Assembly: GCA_021824175.1 (NCBI GenBank)
Contig: JAKALP010000033.1
Location: 1 to 64,000, forward strand
DNA: 64,000 nucleotides
From: Deltaproteobacteria bacterium
GTDB lineage: Bacteria; Desulfobacterota; Desulfobacteria; Desulfobacterales; Desulfosarcinaceae
Direction of reading: 5' to 3'
The notes below the pieces were generated by a model that saw nothing but the letters and a program-made list of their open reading frames with translations, had not been told where the DNA came from and made no database searches. How positions within the stretch are numbered: position 1 is the first letter of the stretch; every line of letters starts with the position of its first letter. Shown piece by piece: positions 43,381-64,000 of this stretch. Position numbers and translations under genes: made by a program.

Positions 43381-43443
43381 GTGTACTCGACTTGCCGGAC
43401 TCTCCCGGAGCAAGCGCAAAACCTCGAAGGAGCAAACGCGGGT

Positions 43444-46209
43444 ATGAACGCACAGCAAACCCTTGTCATGAACGGCCGTGAATTGAGCTTTGAAAACGGC
43501 CAAACCTTACTGGAAGTGGCCCGGCGCCATCATATCGATATCCCGACGCTCTGCCACCTCAAAGGTACCATGCCCACCGGCTCTTGCCGCATCTGCGTGG
43601 TGGAAGTAGAAGGCGCCCAAACACTGCTGGCCGCCTGCGCCACGCGCGCGGTGGCGGGCATGAAGGTGCAGACCGAATCCGCCGAAGTGGTCAAAGCCCG
43701 GCGGATGATCTTGCAGTTGATGCTCAGCTCGGGCAATCACAATTGCGCCATACGCGGCAGCAATGATCAGGAGTGGACCGATTTTCAGCTCAAGGTTCAC
43801 GGGGAAGACGGCAGCGCCGAGCTGTGCCCGGTGTGGGGCGACTGCCGGCTGCAGGATCTGGCTTACCGCTATCAGGTCAGCGGCCAGCACTTTGCCGCCA
43901 CCCCGGCCCGCTATCCCATCGAGGATGTCAATCCCTTTATCGTCAGGGATTTTTCGCGCTGCATCCAGTGCGGCCGCTGTGTGCAGGCCTGTAACGAAGT
44001 GCAGGTCAATAACGCCATCCAGTTCGGCTACCGGGGCGTGGAGACCAAAATCATCGCCGCCGGTGACCGGCCTTTAAAAGATTCCGATTGCGTGTTCTGC
44101 GGCGAATGCGTCCAGGCCTGCCCCGTGGGCGCCCTGGTGGAAAAAGATGGCCGTTACAGCGTGCGGCCCTGGGAAACCCAGAAGGTGCGTACCACCTGCA
44201 GCTATTGCGGCGTGGGCTGCCAGATCTATCTGCATGTCAAAGACAATCAGGTCGTGAAGGTCACCGGCGCTGATCTGCCACCCAACAACGGCAGCTTGTG
44301 CGTCAAGGGCCGCTTCGGCTATCACTTCATCGGCTCGCCCGAACGGCTCACCGATCCCCTGATCAAAGAGAACGGCACCTTTCGCAAAGCCTCCTGGGAC
44401 GAGGCTCTGAACCTGGTGGCCAAGCGCTTCAAAGAGATCCGCGACACCCACGGCGGCGATCGCATGGGCGTGCTCACCTCGGCGCGCATGACCAACGAAG
44501 ACAACTACGTGGCCCAGAAGTTCACCAGGGCCGTGCTCAAGACCAACAATATCGACCATTGCGCCCGGCTTTGACATAGCTCCACCGTGGCCGGTCTGGC
44601 CGCAGCATTCGGTTCCGGCGCAATGACCAACACCATCGCCGATATCGAAACCGCCGACGTTATTTTAATCACGGGTTCAAATACTACCGAAAATCACCCC
44701 GTGCTTTCTGCTTTTGTCAAACGGGCCGCCAAATTCCGGGGCGCCAAGCTGATCGTGGTGGACCCGCGCCGCATCAAGCTCACCGAGTTCGCCACCCATT
44801 GGTTGCGGCCCAATCTTGGCACCGACGTGGCCTGGATCAACGGCATGCTGCATGTGATCCTCAAAGAGAAGATGCAGAATGCGGAATTTATCAAGAATCG
44901 CACCGAAGGATTTGATGCGCTGCAAAAAGTAGTAGAAAAATATACTCCCGAATTCGTGGAAGGCATCACCGGCATACCGGCTGAAAGCCTGGTCGCGGCG
45001 GCCAAACTCTTCGCCGGCGCCAGGACGGGAAGTATTTTATACTGCATGGGCATCACCCAGCACATCAGCGGTACGGACAACGTGAAGTCCCTGGCCAATC
45101 TGGCCATGCTGACCGGCCACCTGGGCAAAGCCGGCACCGGGGTCAATCCCCTGCGCGGCCAGAACAATGTACAGGGCGCCTGCGACATGGGCGGTCTGCC
45201 CAATGTCTACACCGCTTATCAGCCCGTGGCCGATCTGGCCATTGCCAAGAAGATGGAAGACGCCTGGGGCGTCACCGGGCTTTCCACCAAAATCGGCCTC
45301 AAGGCCACTGAAATGATTCCCAAGGCCCACAGCGGAGAATTGAAAGCGCTTTACATCATCGGCGAAAACCCTCTGGTGTCGGACGCGGATTTGGGCCACG
45401 TGCAGAAGAGTCTGAAGCATTTGGACTTCCTGGTCGTCCAAGACATCTTCCTCACTGAAACCGCCCAAATGGCCGACGTCGTACTTCCATCGGCCTGTTT
45501 CGCGGAAAAAGAAGGCACCTTCTCCAACACCGAACGCCGGGTGCAGCGCGTGCGCCGGGCCGTCTCCCCGCCGGGCCAAAGCAAAGACGACTGGTGGATC
45601 ACGGCTGAAATCGCCACCCACATGGGCTACCCCATGAAATACGAGAGCAGCCAGGCCATCTTCGAAGAGATCGCCAAGGTAACGCCATCCTATGGCGGCA
45701 TCACTTACGCGCGCATTGAAGGCGTCGGGCTGCATTGGCCCTGCCCCACCCAAGAACATCCAGGCACACCCATTTTGCACGGCCAGCAGTTTACCCGCGG
45801 CAAGGGTCTGTTCCACGCCATTGAGTGGATTCCGCCCGCCGAGCAGGTGGACGATGAGTACCCACTCTTTTTGACTACCGGGCGCCTGCTTTACCAGTAC
45901 CACACCGGCACCATGACCATGAAGAGCGCCGATTTGAACGAACGCGCGCCGGAATCCTTCGCCGAACTCTCCAGTACCGATGCGCGCAAGTACGGCCTGC
46001 GGGACGGTGATCAAATCACCGTCGCCTCCCGCCGCGGCGCGATCAAAGTCAAAGTGAAAATACTGCCCAAGGCCGTGGACGGCACCCTCTTCATCCCCTT
46101 CCACTTCGCCCAGGGCGCGGCCAACGTTTTGACCAACGCGGCCCTAGACCCGATTTCGGGCATCCCCGAATTCAAAGTGTGCGCGGTGAAGATCAACAAG
46201 GCTGCTTAA
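43444..46209 (+). CDS. fdhA: Formate dehydrogenase alpha subunit, selenocysteine-containing
   Basis: A 921-residue molybdenum/tungsten enzyme read through a UGA. The N-terminal part is NuoG-like: a [2Fe-2S] domain (CHLKGTMPTGSCRICVVEVEG), a Cys/His cluster region, and two [4Fe-4S] motifs (CIQCGRCVQACNEV and CVFCGECVQACPVGA). The catalytic part starts with CSYCGVGC (Cys252). The UGA at 44572-44574 is codon 377, in the setting [29 protein letters not shown], the classical Sec site of FdhA, and the frame continues to 46209. AAGGAG precedes the ATG. Formate is oxidised to CO2, with electrons passing through the Fe-S chain to a partner not in this window. Confidence 0.93.
44575..44612 (+). promoter_or_regulatory. 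Bacterial SECIS element in fdhA
   Basis: Fourteen bases after the UGA a stem GGCC (44589-44592) / GGCC (44598-44601), extendable by a G-T and a G-C pair, closes the loop GGTCT (44593-44597). The same GGUCU loop occurs in E. coli fdhF. This places SelB and Sec-tRNA at the right distance. Confidence 0.75.
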
Positions 46210-56722: not shown

Positions 56723-58423
56723 ATGGGACCGGAAGTAAATAATGATGCCCTGGCCGCGGATGCCATCATCCCGGCCCGCATGCTCAATGAGTATGTCTAC
56801 TGCCCGCGGCTGGCTTATCTGATGTGGGTGCAGGGCGAATTCGCCCACAACGCCGACACGGTGGAGGGCGCCATCCGCCACCGGCGCGTGGATCAGGCCG
56901 CGGGAATTCTTCCGGAAGAAAAAGAAGAAGAGAAGATCCACGCCCGCTCGGTGCATTTGACTTCCGAGCGCTTGGGCTTGACGGCCAGGATCGATCTGGT
57001 GGAGGGCGACGGCGAGGGCGTGCGGCCCGTGGATTACAAGAAGGGCAAGCGGCCCCATGTGGCGGCCGGCGCCTATGACCCGGAGCGGGTGCAGGTCTGC
57101 GCGCAGGGATTGCTGCTGCGGGAGCATGCCTTTGCCTGCGATTCGGGCTTTCTTTACTTCGCCGGATCGCGCGAGCGGGTGCCGGTCCAGTTCGATGAAG
57201 ACTTGATCGCGTTGACCCTGCGCGCCATCGAGGGTTTGCGCGGCCTGTCCGGTTTGGACAAGCCGCCGGCGCCGCTGGCCGACAGCCCCAAGTGCGGCCG
57301 CTGCTCGCTGGCCGGCATCTGTCTGCCTGATGAGGTGAGTTTCATCAATCACGCCACGGCCGACGTTCGGCCGATCTTTGCCCAAAGAACAACAGGATTG
57401 CCGCTGTATGTCCAATCGGCCGGCAGCTATTTGAAGAAGGACGGCGACCAGATCATAGTCGAAGAGAAGAAGGAACGCGTGGCCGAGGCGCGGTATAACG
57501 ATGTTTCCCAGTTGGTATTGTTCGGGCCTGCCGGCATCAGCACCCCCGCGCTGCACGAATGCTTCCGGCGTGAGATCCCGGTCACCTTCATGAGCTACGG
57601 CGGCTGGTTCATCGGCCACACCGTGGGCACGGGCCATCGCAATGTCATGACCCGCACGCTGCAATACCAGGCCAGCTTTGATCCCCAAGCCTGCCTGCGG
57701 CTGGCGCGGCGGCTGGTGGTGGGCAAAATCCACAACAGCCGGACCCTGCTGCGCCGCAACTGGAAGGCCTTGAGCGAGGAAGAAGAGGCCAAGGCTCCGC
57801 CGGACCTGCTTCAGGCCCTGAAGAACGATATGGCCCAGGCCGCCCGCGCCGACTCGATCCCCGTGCTGCTGGGCGTGGAGGGCAACGCGGCCCGGCGCTA
57901 TTTCGAAAACTTGCTCGGCATGGTATCGCCCGGCTGTCGCCAAGGCGCGGAAGGTTTCGACTTCAATGCCCGCAACCGTCGGCCGCCCAAGGACCCGGTC
58001 AATGCTCTGCTCTCCTTTGCCTATGCCATGCTGACCCGTGAATGGACCATGACGTTGTCCGCCGTGGGGCTGGACCCCTATCGCGGATTTTATCACCAGT
58101 TGCGCCACGGCCGGCCCGCCTTGGCTCTGGATTTGATGGAGCCGTTCCGGCCCCTGGTGGCCGATTCGGCCGTGCTCATGGCGATCAACAATGGAGAGAT
58201 CAAGGCCGATGATTTTATCCGCGGCGCGGCCGGATGCGCGCTGAAACCGGCGGGCCGCAAGCGGTTTATCGCGGCCTTTGAGCGCCGCATGGCTCAGGAG
58301 GTGACCCACCCTATTTTCAAATACCGGATCGACTACCGCCGCCTGTTCGAAGTCCAGGCCCGGCTGCTGGTCCGGTATCTGGCGGGTGAAATTCCGCGGT
58401 ACCCCAATTTTCTGACACGCTGA
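56723..58423 (+). CDS. cas4-cas1: Cas4-Cas1 fusion, spacer integrase
   Basis: A 566-residue fusion of the type I-G adaptation module. Residues 1-205 are Cas4: first cysteine in LNEYVYCPRLAYLMWVQ, RecB-type VRPVDYKKGKRP, and the remaining Fe-S cysteines in KCGRCSLAGICLP. Residues about 215-566 are Cas1: ARYNDVSQLVLFG, Glu386 in LLGVEGNAARRYFENLL, His458 in RGFYHQLRHGRPALALDLMEPFRPL, with Asp470 and Glu473 downstream. Cas4 trims and orients prespacers by PAM; Cas1 joins them to the leader-proximal repeat. GAGGGG precedes the ATG. The stop shares one base with the cas2 start (TGATG). Confidence 0.95.
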   Translation: MGPEVNNDALAADAIIPARMLNEYVYCPRLAYLMWVQGEFAHNADTVEGAIRHRRVDQAAGILPEEKEEEKIHARSVHLTSERLGLTARIDLVEGDGEGVRPVDYKKGKRPHVAAGAYDPERVQVCAQGLLLREHAFACDSGFLYFAGSRERVPVQFDEDLIALTLRAIEGLRGLSGLDKPPAPLADSPKCGRCSLAGICLPDEVSFINHATADVRPIFAQRTTGLPLYVQSAGSYLKKDGDQIIVEEKKERVAEARYNDVSQLVLFGPAGISTPALHECFRREIPVTFMSYGGWFIGHTVGTGHRNVMTRTLQYQASFDPQACLRLARRLVVGKIHNSRTLLRRNWKALSEEEEAKAPPDLLQALKNDMAQAARADSIPVLLGVEGNAARRYFENLLGMVSPGCRQGAEGFDFNARNRRPPKDPVNALLSFAYAMLTREWTMTLSAVGLDPYRGFYHQLRHGRPALALDLMEPFRPLVADSAVLMAINNGEIKADDFIRGAAGCALKPAGRKRFIAAFERRMAQEVTHPIFKYRIDYRRLFEVQARLLVRYLAGEIPRYPNFLTR

Positions 58424-58716
58424 TGCTCATGGAACACACCTACCTGGTCTGTTATGATATTCGCGAACCTCGGCGCTGGCGCAAGGTGTATAAGACCATG
58501 AAAGGCTATGGTGACTGGTTGCAGCTTTCGGTTTTTCAGTGCCGGCTCAGCAAGGAAAAGGTATTGCACATGAGCGCTGATCTTGCCGAGCTGGTCGATC
58601 GGGAACAGGACAATATAATGATCATCGATTTGGGACCGGCGGACACCGTCAAACTGCGGGTTGAAGTGATCGGCAAGCCTTTTGAGCCGATTGAGCGCAA
58701 ACCTCTGATTATCTGA
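58423..58716 (+). CDS. cas2: Cas2
   Basis: A 97-residue Cas2 with the ferredoxin-like fold: YLVCYDIREPRRWRKVYKTMKGYGDWLQLSVFQC carries the conserved Asp after the first strand and the R-R-W-R-K-V-x-K-x-x-x-G-x-G segment. It bridges two Cas1 dimers in the integrase. Start at 58423 overlaps the Cas1 stop; an ATG two codons later (58429) is equally possible. Confidence 0.95.
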   Translation: MLMEHTYLVCYDIREPRRWRKVYKTMKGYGDWLQLSVFQCRLSKEKVLHMSADLAELVDREQDNIMIIDLGPADTVKLRVEVIGKPFEPIERKPLII

Positions 58717-58919
58717 TTTTTATGCCGTGGCGGTTCGAGCGCTCCAATGATGAAGAAAAAGCTGTCAGCGCTCGCAATGAATAAGTTCTTTGAAAAATTG
58801 GAAATGCAAATGAATCGGACCTTAACTATCGAAAGCTGGGGCCGCGGTGCGGCCCAATTTGCCAGGCGCTCGCAACTAAGCTATATAATCCGCCACTGTA
58901 AAGGCTTTGCAAGGGCGGA
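58717..58919 (+). promoter_or_regulatory. CRISPR leader with candidate promoter
   Basis: A 203-base non-coding leader. TATAAT at 58884-58889 is a perfect -10 box; TTGCCA at 58859-58864 lies 19 bases upstream as a -35. Transcription would start near 58896, about 24 bases before the first repeat. A GC hairpin (GGGGCCGC / GCGGCCC, about 58839-58855) lies just upstream of the -35 and may be an integration or IHF-type landmark. Confidence 0.6.
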
Positions 58920-61305
58920 CTTTTCCGGAGCATCACTGCTCCGGCCTCATTGAAGCACAAGGTTGGCCGGCGATGGGAAGCAAACTCCAAAGCCTTTTCC
59001 GGAGCATCACTGCTCCGGCCTCATTGAAGCGGGTATTTATTTTATACTTTAAAGCGGTAATAACAGCTTTTCCGGAGCATCACTGCTCCGGCCTCATTGA
59101 AGCCGCCACTAAAGATGATTGTTGAAAACGGAAGCGCTGCTTTTCCGGAGCATCACTGCTCCGGCCTCATTGAAGCTGTCCAGTTCGCACGGGTCCACGT
59201 CGAAGATGTTGGCTTTTCCGGAGCATCACTGCTCCGGCCTCATTGAAGCTGATTTCCAAGTTATACCCATCCCCATCTACATACAGGCTTTTCCGGAGCA
59301 TCACTGCTCCGGCCTCATTGAAGCTCCCGTAGGAGTTGACAATTTACGGCAATCGTCTGCTTTTCCGGAGCATCACTGCTCCGGCCTCATTGAAGCGATG
59401 AAAACAAAACCAACTGGTCAAGTACTGGGGACCTTTTCCGGAGCATCACTGCTCCGGCCTCATTGAAGCCTTGAAAGGGCGGAATGCATCCTGGTGGCCC
59501 TTGACCTTTTCCGGAGCATCACTGCTCCGGCCTCATTGAAGCCACCGTCGTTCCGAACCCATGTTAGGGCCAAGAACGGACTTTTCCGGAGCATCACTGC
59601 TCCGGCCTCATTGAAGCTTCTTCCAGGGTGGCAAGCAAGGATAGAGTACGCAAGCTTTTCCGGAGCATCACTGCTCCGGCCTCATTGAAGCTTTGCTTTT
59701 TATTTACCCTAACCGTTCCCCTGGCGGAACTTTTCCGGAGCATCACTGCTCCGGCCTCATTGAAGCGTTGCCGCGAACTGGATCTCGCTCAAAGATGTCG
59801 GCCCTTTTCCGGAGCATCACTGCTCCGGCCTCATTGAAGCGGGATTAGCGGTTTTGGACTTCGATTTTGTCGGCACTTTTCCGGAGCATCACTGCTCCGG
59901 CCTCATTGAAGCCCTGTATAGAACATTGCAACACCCGGACAGGTAGATGCTTTTCCGGAGCATCACTGCTCCGGCCTCATTGAAGCTTGGGCATATAATA
60001 AAAATATCTTATAATATCAAATACTTTTCCGGAGCATCACTGCTCCGGCCTCATTGAAGCTTATAAGCCCATGCCAGTAATTCGCATTCTCGGCAGACTT
60101 TTCCGGAGCATCACTGCTCCGGCCTCATTGAAGCAAGCGCTTGTTCCTTCACATAAAGTATATTGCGAAACCTTTTCCGGAGCATCACTGCTCCGGCCTC
60201 ATTGAAGCTGACCGCTGTATTGTGGATACTATCGCCTATTCGACTTTTCCGGAGCATCACTGCTCCGGCCTCATTGAAGCGGCCGCTCACGGGAAGAAAA
60301 GGGGCGAATGCAGGCCTTTTCCGGAGCATCACTGCTCCGGCCTCATTGAAGCATTGTTTCGGTTCGCTTGTGATCCGTATAGATGGCCCTTTTCCGGAGC
60401 ATCACTGCTCCGGCCTCATTGAAGCTTGGCAACTCAAGGCTTGCTGGACTGAAGCCGGGGCGCTTTTCCGGAGCATCACTGCTCCGGCCTCATTGAAGCA
60501 AGTTCAACTCTTGCTATCGAATCCGCGAAATAGGGCCTTTTCCGGAGCATCACTGCTCCGGCCTCATTGAAGCATCTGCGTGTGACGCACGGGCGAGTTT
60601 TTATCAAACCTTTTCCGGAGCATCACTGCTCCGGCCTCATTGAAGCATGGAAGCAGTGGGGGAGAAGGCAGTCCGGGAAGGACTTTTCCGGAGCATCACT
60701 GCTCCGGCCTCATTGAAGCCTTCGGGTTCCTGGAGTATTTCTCCAGGCAGTAGCCTTTTCCGGAGCATCACTGCTCCGGCCTCATTGAAGCAGAGCATAG
60801 CATGCCTTGCCTACTTTACAGAGCCCTCTTTTCCGGAGCATCACTGCTCCGGCCTCATTGAAGCACTACCGCCTGGAAGGATTTGAAGGCCGAAGTGGCC
60901 TTTTCCGGAGCAACACTGCTCCGGCCTCATTGAAGCAATTTAAATCGCAAAAAATTGTGCGCGCTGAGGCGCTTTTCCGGAGCATCACTGCTCCGGCCTC
61001 ATTGAAGCTTCGAAGTGGGATGACGCGGCCCGCGATGCGGCCGTGCTTTTCCGGAGCATCACTGCTCCGGCCTCATTGAAGCTTGGACCGCCTGCGAGTG
61101 GCAGCCGCCCGGCATGGAGTCTTTTCCGGAGCATCACTGCTTCGGCCTCATTGAAGCTGAGTATGGCTGATTTGGCTGCAACCGATGTAACGATCTTTTC
61201 CGGAGCATCACTGCTCCGGCCTCATTGAAGCTCCGATAACTCGCCTTTATCGCCCCAGGCCGAGCAGACTTTTCCGGAGCATCACTGCTCCGGCCTCATT
61301 GAAGC
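58920..61305 (+). CRISPR. Type I-G CRISPR array, 33 repeats, 32 spacers
   Basis: I count 33 direct repeats of 37 bp, the first at 58920-58956 and the last at 61269-61305, with 32 spacers of 35-38 bp. Each repeat begins CTTTTCCGGAGCA and ends CCTCATTGAAGC. Within it CCGGAGCA and TGCTCCGG form a perfect 8-bp stem with the loop TCAC. Thirty-one repeats are identical; the two variants (60900-60936, one T to A; 61121-61157, one C to T) lie at the far end. This polarity, with cas2 and leader on the left, means new spacers enter at the left and transcription runs rightward. Confidence 0.99.
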
Positions 61306-62084: not shown

Positions 62085-62483
62085 TTATTGGGGGAGTTTT
62101 AACTGGGGGCATTGCAGGGCGTCGAACTCTGGATCTTTATGGACCAGGGTGCCGTTTTCAAGCAAGGCGGCCGCGCCGATCCAGGCGTCGGCCAGGGAAA
62201 GGTGATGGGTGGCTTTGATTTGAGCCGCGCGCTCCAGCAGGGCTTCACTTTCATGGATGATTTCGAGCGGTAAGGAACGGCATTGTTCATAGGCCAGTCG
62301 CCCGGAGGATTCGTTTTCATCCTTCCATACGCGATAGAACAGCTCCATCAGGGATATAAAGCATATTTTGCAGACAACCGTCCCCCTTTGAGCCTGATAG
62401 AGCAAGTCGGCCACCTGATCCGCGCCCGATTCATTATCGCGTAATGATAATAGCGCCGATGTATCCAGAAGATATCGTTTCAT
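62085..62483 (-). CDS. vapC: VapC-like PIN-domain toxin
   Basis: A 132-residue PIN-domain ribonuclease. The acidic residues of the active site are visible: Asp in YLLDTSALLSLRD, Glu in ISLMELFYRV, and Asp in HHLSLADAWIGAAALLENGTLVHKDPEF. VapC toxins cut tRNA or rRNA. Its start overlaps the VapB stop by 4 bases (ATGA), antitoxin first, the usual order. Oriented leftward, it ends about 800 bases from the CRISPR array. Confidence 0.9.
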   Translation of the reverse strand: MKRYLLDTSALLSLRDNESGADQVADLLYQAQRGTVVCKICFISLMELFYRVWKDENESSGRLAYEQCRSLPLEIIHESEALLERAAQIKATHHLSLADAWIGAAALLENGTLVHKDPEFDALQCPQLKLPQ

Positions 62484-62704
62484 TCTGTTTTTCTATCTTT
62501 TCTTCTTTCCTTGAGCAGCCGCCGGACGGCGCCTCCGGCGCCCTGGCCTCGAAATGCTTCGATGGGGTTGGCCCGCACGGGCACGACCCGAATGTGGTTG
62601 TCCTCGACTATCCATTCAATCCGATCGGCCGCCGTCAGTTGAAACTTGCGCCTGATTTCGGCGGGGATAACGGTTTGGCCTCTGGTGGTAATGGTGCTGC
62701 GCAT
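62480..62704 (-). CDS. vapB: VapB-like AbrB-fold antitoxin
   Basis: A 74-residue antitoxin. Residues 1-45 form an AbrB/SpoVT swapped-hairpin DNA-binding domain (TITTRGQTVIPAEIRRKFQL, DRIEWIVEDNHIRVVPV). The C-terminal part (GQGAGGAVRRLLKERRKDRK) should fold over the toxin. AGGAGG lies 6 bases before the ATG. Confidence 0.9.
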   Translation of the reverse strand: MRSTITTRGQTVIPAEIRRKFQLTAADRIEWIVEDNHIRVVPVRANPIEAFRGQGAGGAVRRLLKERRKDRKTE

Positions 62705-62857: not shown

Positions 62858-64000
62858 CTAATGTTCGCTTTCAGGATGGAACACGTCCACATCCTTGAGA
62901 TCATCGCCCAGGTAGGCGCGCTCGTTGGGGCCCAGAATGCCTAGGGAGAGGCACAGCAGGGTCCACAGGTGCACGGTTTGCCAGGCATGGTGGCGCACTT
63001 CGCTCAGGTCGTGAACTTGAGCATGGCAGTTGTGGCAAGGGGTGATGCAGTACTGGGCGCCGGTGGCCAGGATCTGGTTGGCCTTCATTTCGCCGTACTT
63101 GCGGCGCTGCTCGGTAAAGCCTGATTGCAGATACCCGCCGCCGCCGCCGCAGCAGAAGTTGTTGGAGCGGTTGGGGTACATGTCGATGAAGTTTTCTTCA
63201 CCCACCACGGCTTTCACTACATAGCGCAGGTCCTCGGCGACCGGATCACCAAAGCTTTTACGCACCAACTGGCAGGGATCCTGAACCGTGAATTTGATTT
63301 TGCGCTCCTTGTTCCACTCGGAGCTGGGCTTGAGTTTGCCCTCGCGAATCCACTGGGCATAGAGTTGAATGATGCTTTTGATTTCGAAGTTGTAGGGAAT
63401 CTTGAACTTTTGCAGTCCGAACCGGACCGCGAAGAGTTCGTGCCCTCACTCCGTGTTGAGCCACACTTTGCAGCCCAAATCTTCTACGGCCTTGACCTTG
63501 GTGCGGACGATCTTCTCCCAGTTCTCGTCATCGGCCATAAACAGGCAGTAGTTTTCCGCGGCCCACCCTTTGCTGCCGTAGGTCCAGTCGGCGCCGGCCA
63601 GGTTCAGGATCTTCCACAGGGGCACCATTTCATCGGGCTCGGTCACGGGTTCGCGAGAGTTCTGATTCAGGAAGTAGTAAGCACCTTCCCTGTTCACATC
63701 CGCGGTCATTTCGGCGAATTCGGGCTGGGCCTCCTGATATTCGCCCAACACATCTTCCACCACGAACTGGAAATCTTCTTCCGTGGCGCCCATGGCGCTG
63801 CAGGTATCGTTGCGCAGAGCCATGTCGCAGGAGCCCAAAATGCCCTTGGGTCGCTTATCTCTGGGCCAGGTTTGCCGCGCGTAGAACACCAGTTGCGGAA
63901 TGTTGATTTTCATGGGGCAGACATAGACGCAGCGGGTGCACATGCTGCACATCCAGACCCAGGGGGTCGTGGTGATCTCCTCGTCCATTCCCAGGGCTGC
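62858..64000 (-). CDS. Heterodisulfide-reductase-like Fe-S protein, selenocysteine-containing (partial)
   Basis: At least 380 residues, cut by the window edge at its 5' side. A [4Fe-4S] motif CSMCTRCVYVCPMKINIPQ is near the visible start. The C-terminal CCG domain is complete: VQDPCQLVRKSFGDPVAEDL, NNFCCGGGGGYLQSG, CITPCHNCHAQV. Between them a UGA at 63448-63446 stands in LNTE-U-GHELFAVRFGLQKFKIPY, where relatives have Cys before GH, and the frame runs on for about 60 codons into the CCG domain. A stem CGAAC/GTTCG (63436-63440 with 63418-63422) with GGT in its loop could be the SECIS. Such proteins link low-potential Fe-S electrons with thiol or quinone redox in sulfate reducers. Confidence 0.85.

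Follow-up and report, generated by a model that had tools for sequence, protein, structure and literature searches.

A UGA codon almost certainly read as selenocysteine in a heterodisulfide-reductase-like Fe-S protein of a Desulfosarcinaceae genome that also encodes an opal tRNA-Cys system

The HdrD-like gene at the end of the window, the whole stretch of 64,000 nucleotides that was analysed, carries at residue 244 a UGA codon that, judged from sequence comparison, is almost certainly recoded. This conclusion was drawn because TGA and Cys codons alternate at the site among homologues, conservation of a hairpin behind the codon is confined to the genes with UGA, and the genome encodes selA, selB, selC and selD. 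The explanation as a whole, a HdrD-like selenoprotein with selenocysteine (Sec) at residue 244 together with the mechanism proposed for it below, is considered very probable. A gene that standard annotation would break is then whole, and in this phylum selenium often takes the place of the invariant Cys of the HdrD/TmcB/DsrK-type active site. The window belongs to contig C54 (64,692 bases) of a draft genome of 6.07 Mb in 61 contigs, which is 99.5% complete. The features of the gene are as follows.

62858-64000 in the window, minus strand: HdrD-like (CCG) selenoprotein gene of 439 codons, ATG at 64177 beyond the window and TAG at 62858-62860; Pfam CCG domain.
63446-63448, minus strand: in-frame UGA, residue 244 (predicted Sec); TGA in 43 and a Cys codon in 13 of 56 homologues of the phylum sample.
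63412-63430, minus strand: bSECIS hairpin with a stem of 8 bp and a GUU loop, starting 15 nt after the UGA; recognised by pairing, covariation and fold.
63917-63949, minus strand: second [4Fe-4S] ferredoxin-like motif, C77-C80-C83-C87, without variation in an alignment of 33 sequences.
63026-63274, minus strand: complete C-terminal CCG cluster motif, C302, C342, C343, C381 and C384, from alignments and the HdrB-like fold.

The TGA is the sole stop in the frame between the ATG and the terminal TAG, and the sequence around it reads LNTE-U-GHELFAVR, as had been stated in the original prediction made from the letters of the window. The frame had also been said to run on into an intact CCG domain, and this domain was recovered with Pfam (PF02754, 47.3 bits). 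With the standard code the gene falls apart, as had been anticipated for automatic annotation, into a piece of 243 codons (180 codons from the in-window ATG) and an open reading frame of 136 aa starting with TTG. The GC content at third codon positions is similar on either side of the TGA, 0.79 in the 184 in-window codons upstream and 0.75 in the 195 codons downstream. A first ferredoxin-like motif (C33-C36-C39-C43) lies beyond the window end. The best NCBIfam relatives are HmcF, TmcB and DsrK, and with the 380 in-window residues all equivalog cut-offs were missed (HmcF 154 of 750 bits, TmcB 147 of 735, DsrK 95 of 400, GlpC 25 of 279.9). Among loci of more than 9 kb from named genomes (n=69, from the best 80 of 526 relatives), HdrA-type genes were found in the context of 29 and MvhD1-type genes in that of 26; the naming of a redox partner from the neighbours was dropped, the context of the window gene being too weakly conserved. 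Directly downstream of the gene, at 62085-62704 on the minus strand, a pair of genes for a VapC-like PIN toxin and an AbrB-like antitoxin was recognised by eye.

For the comparison of codon 244, 326 genomes sampled evenly from the phylum were searched with a homologue cut of E <= 1e-130, up to five candidates being scored per genome, so that copies may have been missed. This yielded 56 genes from 40 genomes, and the site could be read in all of them: beside the 43 TGA codons there are 12 TGC, one TGT and no other residue. When the four genes of the own genome are left out, TGA still occupies 40 of 52 sites. The own genome holds three further paralogues with TGA (L002, 72% identical; L004, 61%; L005, 35%) and one with Cys (L003, TGC, 64% identical). 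The expectation that relatives carry Cys-Gly-His agrees with 11 of the 13 Cys homologues, the other two (L090 and L093) having Cys-Ala-His, and homologues free of Cys at the site, named as evidence to the contrary in the original prediction, did not turn up among the 13 Cys and 43 TGA sequences. A scan of named genomes listed 526 relatives; in the best 80, to which the analysis was confined, TGA stands at 82 of 82 sites; these loci are the nearest relatives and therefore offer no fair count of TGA against Cys. Among the same best 80 of 526, TGA also occurs in records not titled as MAGs, namely Desulfatitalea alkaliphila M08but, Desulfospira joergensenii DSM 10085 and Desulfamplus magnetovallimortis, and the six closest loci, 91-97% identical, come from Desulfatitalea (4), a Desulfobacterales bacterium (1) and a Deltaproteobacteria bacterium (1). 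In a tree of 60 proteins (44 Sec and 16 Cys, three of the latter being TmcB-, HmcF- and DsrK-like paralogues) eight Sec/Cys changes are needed, six of which are forced by well-supported branches, and the site is for this reason a good natural experiment on the benefit of selenium near a noncubane cluster. A search of plasmids gave remote matches only (2 of 72,556 records). Sec at UAG was also considered and dropped, since the TAG codons reported inside the homologues of two genomes (G252 and G277) are ordinary terminal stops.

The stretch at about 63400-63446, for which a bSECIS search had been recommended, contains a hairpin that is, as far as sequence comparison goes, a bacterial SECIS element. 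Counting the T of the TGA as 0, bases 18-25 pair with bases 29-36 and enclose a loop of three bases with G first. Of the 44 TGA genes (the 43 of the phylum sample and the remote paralogue L005), 42 can form all of the inner seven pairs, as against none of the 13 Cys genes (Fisher p 4e-11, uncorrected for relatedness). The two misses are L081, in which only the top pair forms, and L005, the loop of which is one base longer. All eight pairs are present in 30 of the 44 genes, the outermost pair in only 32, and the loop columns start with G in all 44. Covariation was analysed in the 43 aligned TGA genes (41 distinct), L005 being left out of this alignment on account of its longer loop. Here 96.0% of the cells are paired, and five of the eight pairs have changed on both sides, in 53 cells in total. 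None of 500 shuffles equalled the hairpin in cells paired, in changed cells or in covariation score; two further measures were weak, the number of changed pairs being as high in 13 and the pair types in 254 of 500 shuffles. Slid versions of the hairpin pair at 19-45%. At the named sites (best 80 of 526 loci) all inner seven pairs form in 77 of 82 cases and one pair is broken in the other five. The window copy by itself folds with -18.2 kcal/mol (z -2.70; 6 of 200 shuffles equally good). With Rfam at gathering scores no SECIS family was matched in the window, the matches being one tRNA and 32 CRISPR repeats. The hairpin stretch is coding and is also constrained by amino-acid conservation, yet the stem is absent from the Cys homologues.

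The machinery for Sec insertion, for which a search for selA, selB and selC had been advised, is present in the own genome with selA at 620 bits, selB at 379 bits and a tRNA-Sec (selC) with UCA anticodon at 73 bits; selD scores over the cut-off twice, each copy with an in-frame TGA. The lack of such machinery, raised as a possible objection in the original prediction, is thereby removed. Among the 40 genomes carrying the HdrD-like gene, selA was found in all 40 and tRNA-Sec above the family cut-off in 38, G232 having one match below it and G057 no match in this search. SelB above the family cut-off is absent from G033 and G275 (290 and 740 contigs) despite their TGA genes, selA, selC and selD, probably owing to assembly gaps in these fragmented drafts; the two genomes were not taken as support for Sec insertion.

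A second system that reads UGA is encoded in the same genome. On contig C22 an odd tRNA with UCA anticodon lies directly before a second selB, which is followed by a CysRS gene.

C22 about 173695-176984 (L029 1695-4984): selC*-selB*-cysS* operon, with an opal tRNA-Cys, a second SelB and CysRS*.

CysRS* has 418 aa and its anticodon-binding end is absent. In the selC* tRNA, U73, 8/4 arms and an A bulging out of the T stem were read by hand. A selC* tRNA-Cys with SelB* and CysRS* is described from Desulfobacterales (PMC7609411, PMC9437257), and the charged SelC* tRNA is stated to insert Cys at Sec UGA codons, with a posited role when selenium is scarce (PMC9437257). The operon on C22 shares with the system described in PMC7609411 the tRNA features, the selB copy downstream and the CysRS without anticodon domain, but its tRNA, read by hand, has A1.C72 in place of the A1:U72 pair that is read in L235, L242 and L247, and the operon is unlinked to the window gene. 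In its surroundings are Cys-type HdrD-like, MvhD, HdrA and FdhA genes, and then come a selD with TGA and a gene resembling yedF (by eye). The Hdr, Mvh and Fdh neighbours are Cys forms: the HdrD-like protein has CGH, FdhA has Cys, and HdrA and two MvhD are without TGA.

In order to survey SelB*, the three best candidates per genome of the phylum sample were scored with a threshold of over 430 bits. It was found in 12 genomes and is likely in two more (G212 and G078), and of these 14 only the own genome and G132 hold the family of the window gene (E <= 1e-130). The last winged-helix domain of SelB is the SECIS-binding domain. In this domain the motif RK[YF]xIP is present in none of the 12 SelB* as against 13 of 18 other SelBs (the next-best matches and the own genome's, one of which, L055, sits behind selC*), and its absence, seen at the sequence level, suggests that SelB* has another RNA target. 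Hdr/Mvh genes are near SelB* in 10 of 15 loci as compared with 0 of 20 control regions, and Hdr/Mvh or FdhA genes in 12 of 15 as compared with 3 of 20. The controls were chosen by hand, at round coordinates, from seven of the 14 genomes with an island (G132, G161, G211, G316, G162, G187 and G276). The island loci span 4 to 20 kb (30 kb for the own one), no selC* was called in one of the 15 (L240), and some of the genomes are closely related to each other; the significance of these two comparisons is for these reasons only a guide. A TGA-containing selD is near selB* in G000, G072 and G222. We read the selC*-selB*-cysS* region as a selenium-economy island. Two other arrangements were observed in the same survey. 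In family f77 (L243-L246) mvhD lies between a selC* with GCA (Cys) anticodon and selB*, with no obvious recoded codon seen; this SelB paralogue is apparently paired with an ordinary Cys anticodon. A further divergent type of SelB, the last winged helix of which contains GRTQ, occurs in L056, L057 and L059 (G245, G045 and G319), and each of these genomes has a second SelB match besides.

The coexistence of this opal tRNA-Cys system with the Sec machinery makes it testable, on one peptide of the window protein, whether a Sec codon is read as Sec or as Cys once selenium is exhausted. Under selenium shortage, SelC* tRNA-Cys(UCA), CysRS* and SelB* might put Cys at UGA-244, so that Sec and Cys forms of the protein would both be made; such facultative decoding would add to the Sec explanation and is compatible with it. 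The operon is complete in the genome, and Cys insertion at Sec UGA by the charged SelC* tRNA is stated in PMC9437257. SelB*, with three best candidates scored in each, is however unseen in 38 of the 40 carrier genomes, the missing RK[YF]xIP in 12 of 12 SelB* points to a different RNA target, and a Cys isozyme of the same protein is already present in the genome (L003), and facultative decoding is accordingly held to be possible but rather unlikely. A wider version, in which selenium supply sets residue 244, with canonical SelB giving Sec and the island giving Cys at UGA-244 and at other Sec codons while Cys isozymes encoded in this island are switched on, appears doubtful; if true, one gene would give two redox variants. 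Two stronger proposals were dropped, namely that SelB* is required for the window gene (38 of 40 carriers are without it) and that every Cys copy is paired with selC* (Cys copies occur in G036, G254 and G295, where SelB* was unseen).

Other readings of the codon fare much worse than Sec. That UGA stands for another amino acid through a general code change or ordinary suppression is very improbable, since UGA still terminates genes in this genome (SelB* and fdhA on C22, for example), the recoding is tied to a local hairpin, and Cys alone occupies the site in the 13 homologues without UGA. Equally slight is the chance that the gene is a pseudogene with a nonsense mutation, the protein ending at residue 243 and the remainder being dead: standard annotation would indeed stop there, but dozens of genomes share the TGA at this position, the downstream half is conserved and the hairpin covaries. 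A sequencing or assembly error for TGC or TGT, to which the original prediction had pointed as a way for Sec to fail, is the least credible of all, for although Cys is one base change away and the genome is a draft, TGA is found at all 82 named sites of the best 80 of 526 loci and in three other paralogues of the genome, none of the 13 Cys genes has the hairpin, and the recurrence of TGA in many genomes excludes a miscalled base.

The place of Sec in the protein was derived from alignments and a predicted structure. When the HdrD-like copies are aligned with the genome's own TmcB-, HmcF- and DsrK-like proteins, six Cys are invariant in the C-terminal part, namely the five of the CCG motif and Sec/Cys 244, and the same six stand out in an alignment of 33 sequences (without L073, L080, L108, L161, L199 and L087); in the N-terminal half residue 244 is the only invariant Cys/Sec. 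An AlphaFold model was computed from the 33-sequence alignment with a pLDDT of 88.4, whereas a single-sequence prediction (pLDDT 34) was rejected. The best fold match of the model is EtfD of M. smegmatis (9ojn; residues 14-437, Z 24.3, rmsd 2.8, 368 aligned). Five HdrB entries match with Z 19.3-20.1, rmsd 2.8-3.0 and 244-255 aligned residues, among them 8rvy_B (Z 20.1, rmsd 2.8, 250 aligned) and 5odc_B (Z 19.3, rmsd 3.0, 254 aligned), and cover model residues from 166-422 to 166-431. The initial description of the protein as heterodisulfide-reductase-like is thus right for the fold. Similar scores were obtained with the Helicobacter pylori protein 3kwl of unknown function (Z 19.7, rmsd 4.5) and the LutA model 9a6l (Z 18.9, rmsd 2.7). 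With the single protein as query, phmmer found two HdrC sequences only, while profiles reached HdrB and 9ojn and aligned the ferredoxin part with HdrC (62 bits).

HdrB is built as a pseudo-repeat, with two CCG halves and two complete cluster motifs. In the model, the strand 238-241, residue 244 and the helix 246-257 repeat the strand 376-379, C381 and the helix 382-395, and the profile lays ECGHAFF on TCPHCFN of 9ojn, which puts the site at the first Cys of a CxxC. Residue 244 is, according to the EtfD alignment and the modelled repeat for HdrB, at the position where a cluster-binding CxxC begins; Sec 244 is on the same model one ligand position of a cluster otherwise lost from the HdrD-like protein. 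This position, together with the fold correspondence and symmetry, makes it most likely that the selenol of the modelled protein faces the remaining C-terminal cluster. By analogy with HdrB chemistry we infer that it could serve as nucleophile or ligand at the cluster. As had been proposed in the original prediction, Sec 244 may alter the redox behaviour. In the proposed mechanism, canonical SelB, held by the hairpin, would bring Sec-tRNA(Sec) to UGA-244. The product combines an HdrB-type double domain with two [4Fe-4S] motifs at its N-terminus. All five Cys of a CCG (noncubane [4Fe-4S]) cluster are kept in the C-terminal half of the double domain, and in the N-terminal half the cluster motif is gone save for residue 244. 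The selenol of this residue would take part in two-electron chemistry on disulfides or persulfides, with coupling to the ferredoxin clusters.

In earlier reports, an Fe-S oxidoreductase-like protein with UGH (GlpC, COG0247, PTHR43551) is among the predicted selenoproteins, and a UGH selenoprotein with Cys homologues and SECIS is reported from Deltaproteobacteria (PMC1794560, PMC13188914, PMC9312934). An Fe-S oxidoreductase is also named as a selenoprotein in PMC8318568. The window gene joins a family that, according to PMC1794560 and PMC13188914, has been listed as a selenoprotein since at least 2006. In common are an Fe-S protein in which Sec forms part of UGH, homologues with Cys, a SECIS with G in the apical loop, and selA, selB, selC and selD, and the assignment to the UGH family (PTHR43551, WP_174406253.1) was made via the motif and the COG name alone. 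The family is called GlpC by COG in these papers, whereas the window protein reaches only 25 bits against the GlpC cut-off of 279.9. The operon given there for the family, glpC-hdrA-frhD-frhG-frhA, was not seen downstream of the window gene; upstream, only 515 bases of contig remain beyond the start codon. The protein resembles HmcF, TmcB and DsrK of sulfate reducers in its ferredoxin motifs, in having the complete CCG motif and in the invariant [C/U]-[G/A] site, but it misses all three equivalog cut-offs (750, 735 and 400). As compared with methanogen HdrB and HdrC (5odc, 7bkb, 8rvy), the ferredoxin part resembles HdrC and the double CCG domain HdrB, with the difference from HdrB that the N-terminal cluster motif is cut down to the single Sec/Cys 244 while the C-terminal one is complete. 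EtfD of M. smegmatis (9ojn) is the best match in fold but is much longer (1042 residues) and has Cys at the site (TCPHC). What the present study adds is a clean test of the SECIS, a position for Sec in the structure, and a connection with the question of Sec or Cys, which is open to experiment.

A second selenoprotein of the window is likely encoded by the following gene.

43381-46209, plus strand: formate dehydrogenase alpha subunit (by eye), with an in-frame TGA at 44572-44574 in ARLUHSSTVAGL.

The fold of the 54 bases from this TGA is no more stable than that of shuffled sequences (z 0.31), and standard annotation would split the gene at the codon. Elsewhere in the genome (L036, C1:12401-13771), a fused protein consists of a cysteine synthase (CysK-like, by eye) and, behind it, a CysRS-like domain with changed catalytic motifs. 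The window also holds, at 56723-61305 on the plus strand, genes recognised by eye for a Cas1 of 566 aa with a probable Cas4 fused in front and for a Cas2 of 97 aa, and the latter is followed by a CRISPR array with 37-base repeats (Rfam CRISPR-DR16).
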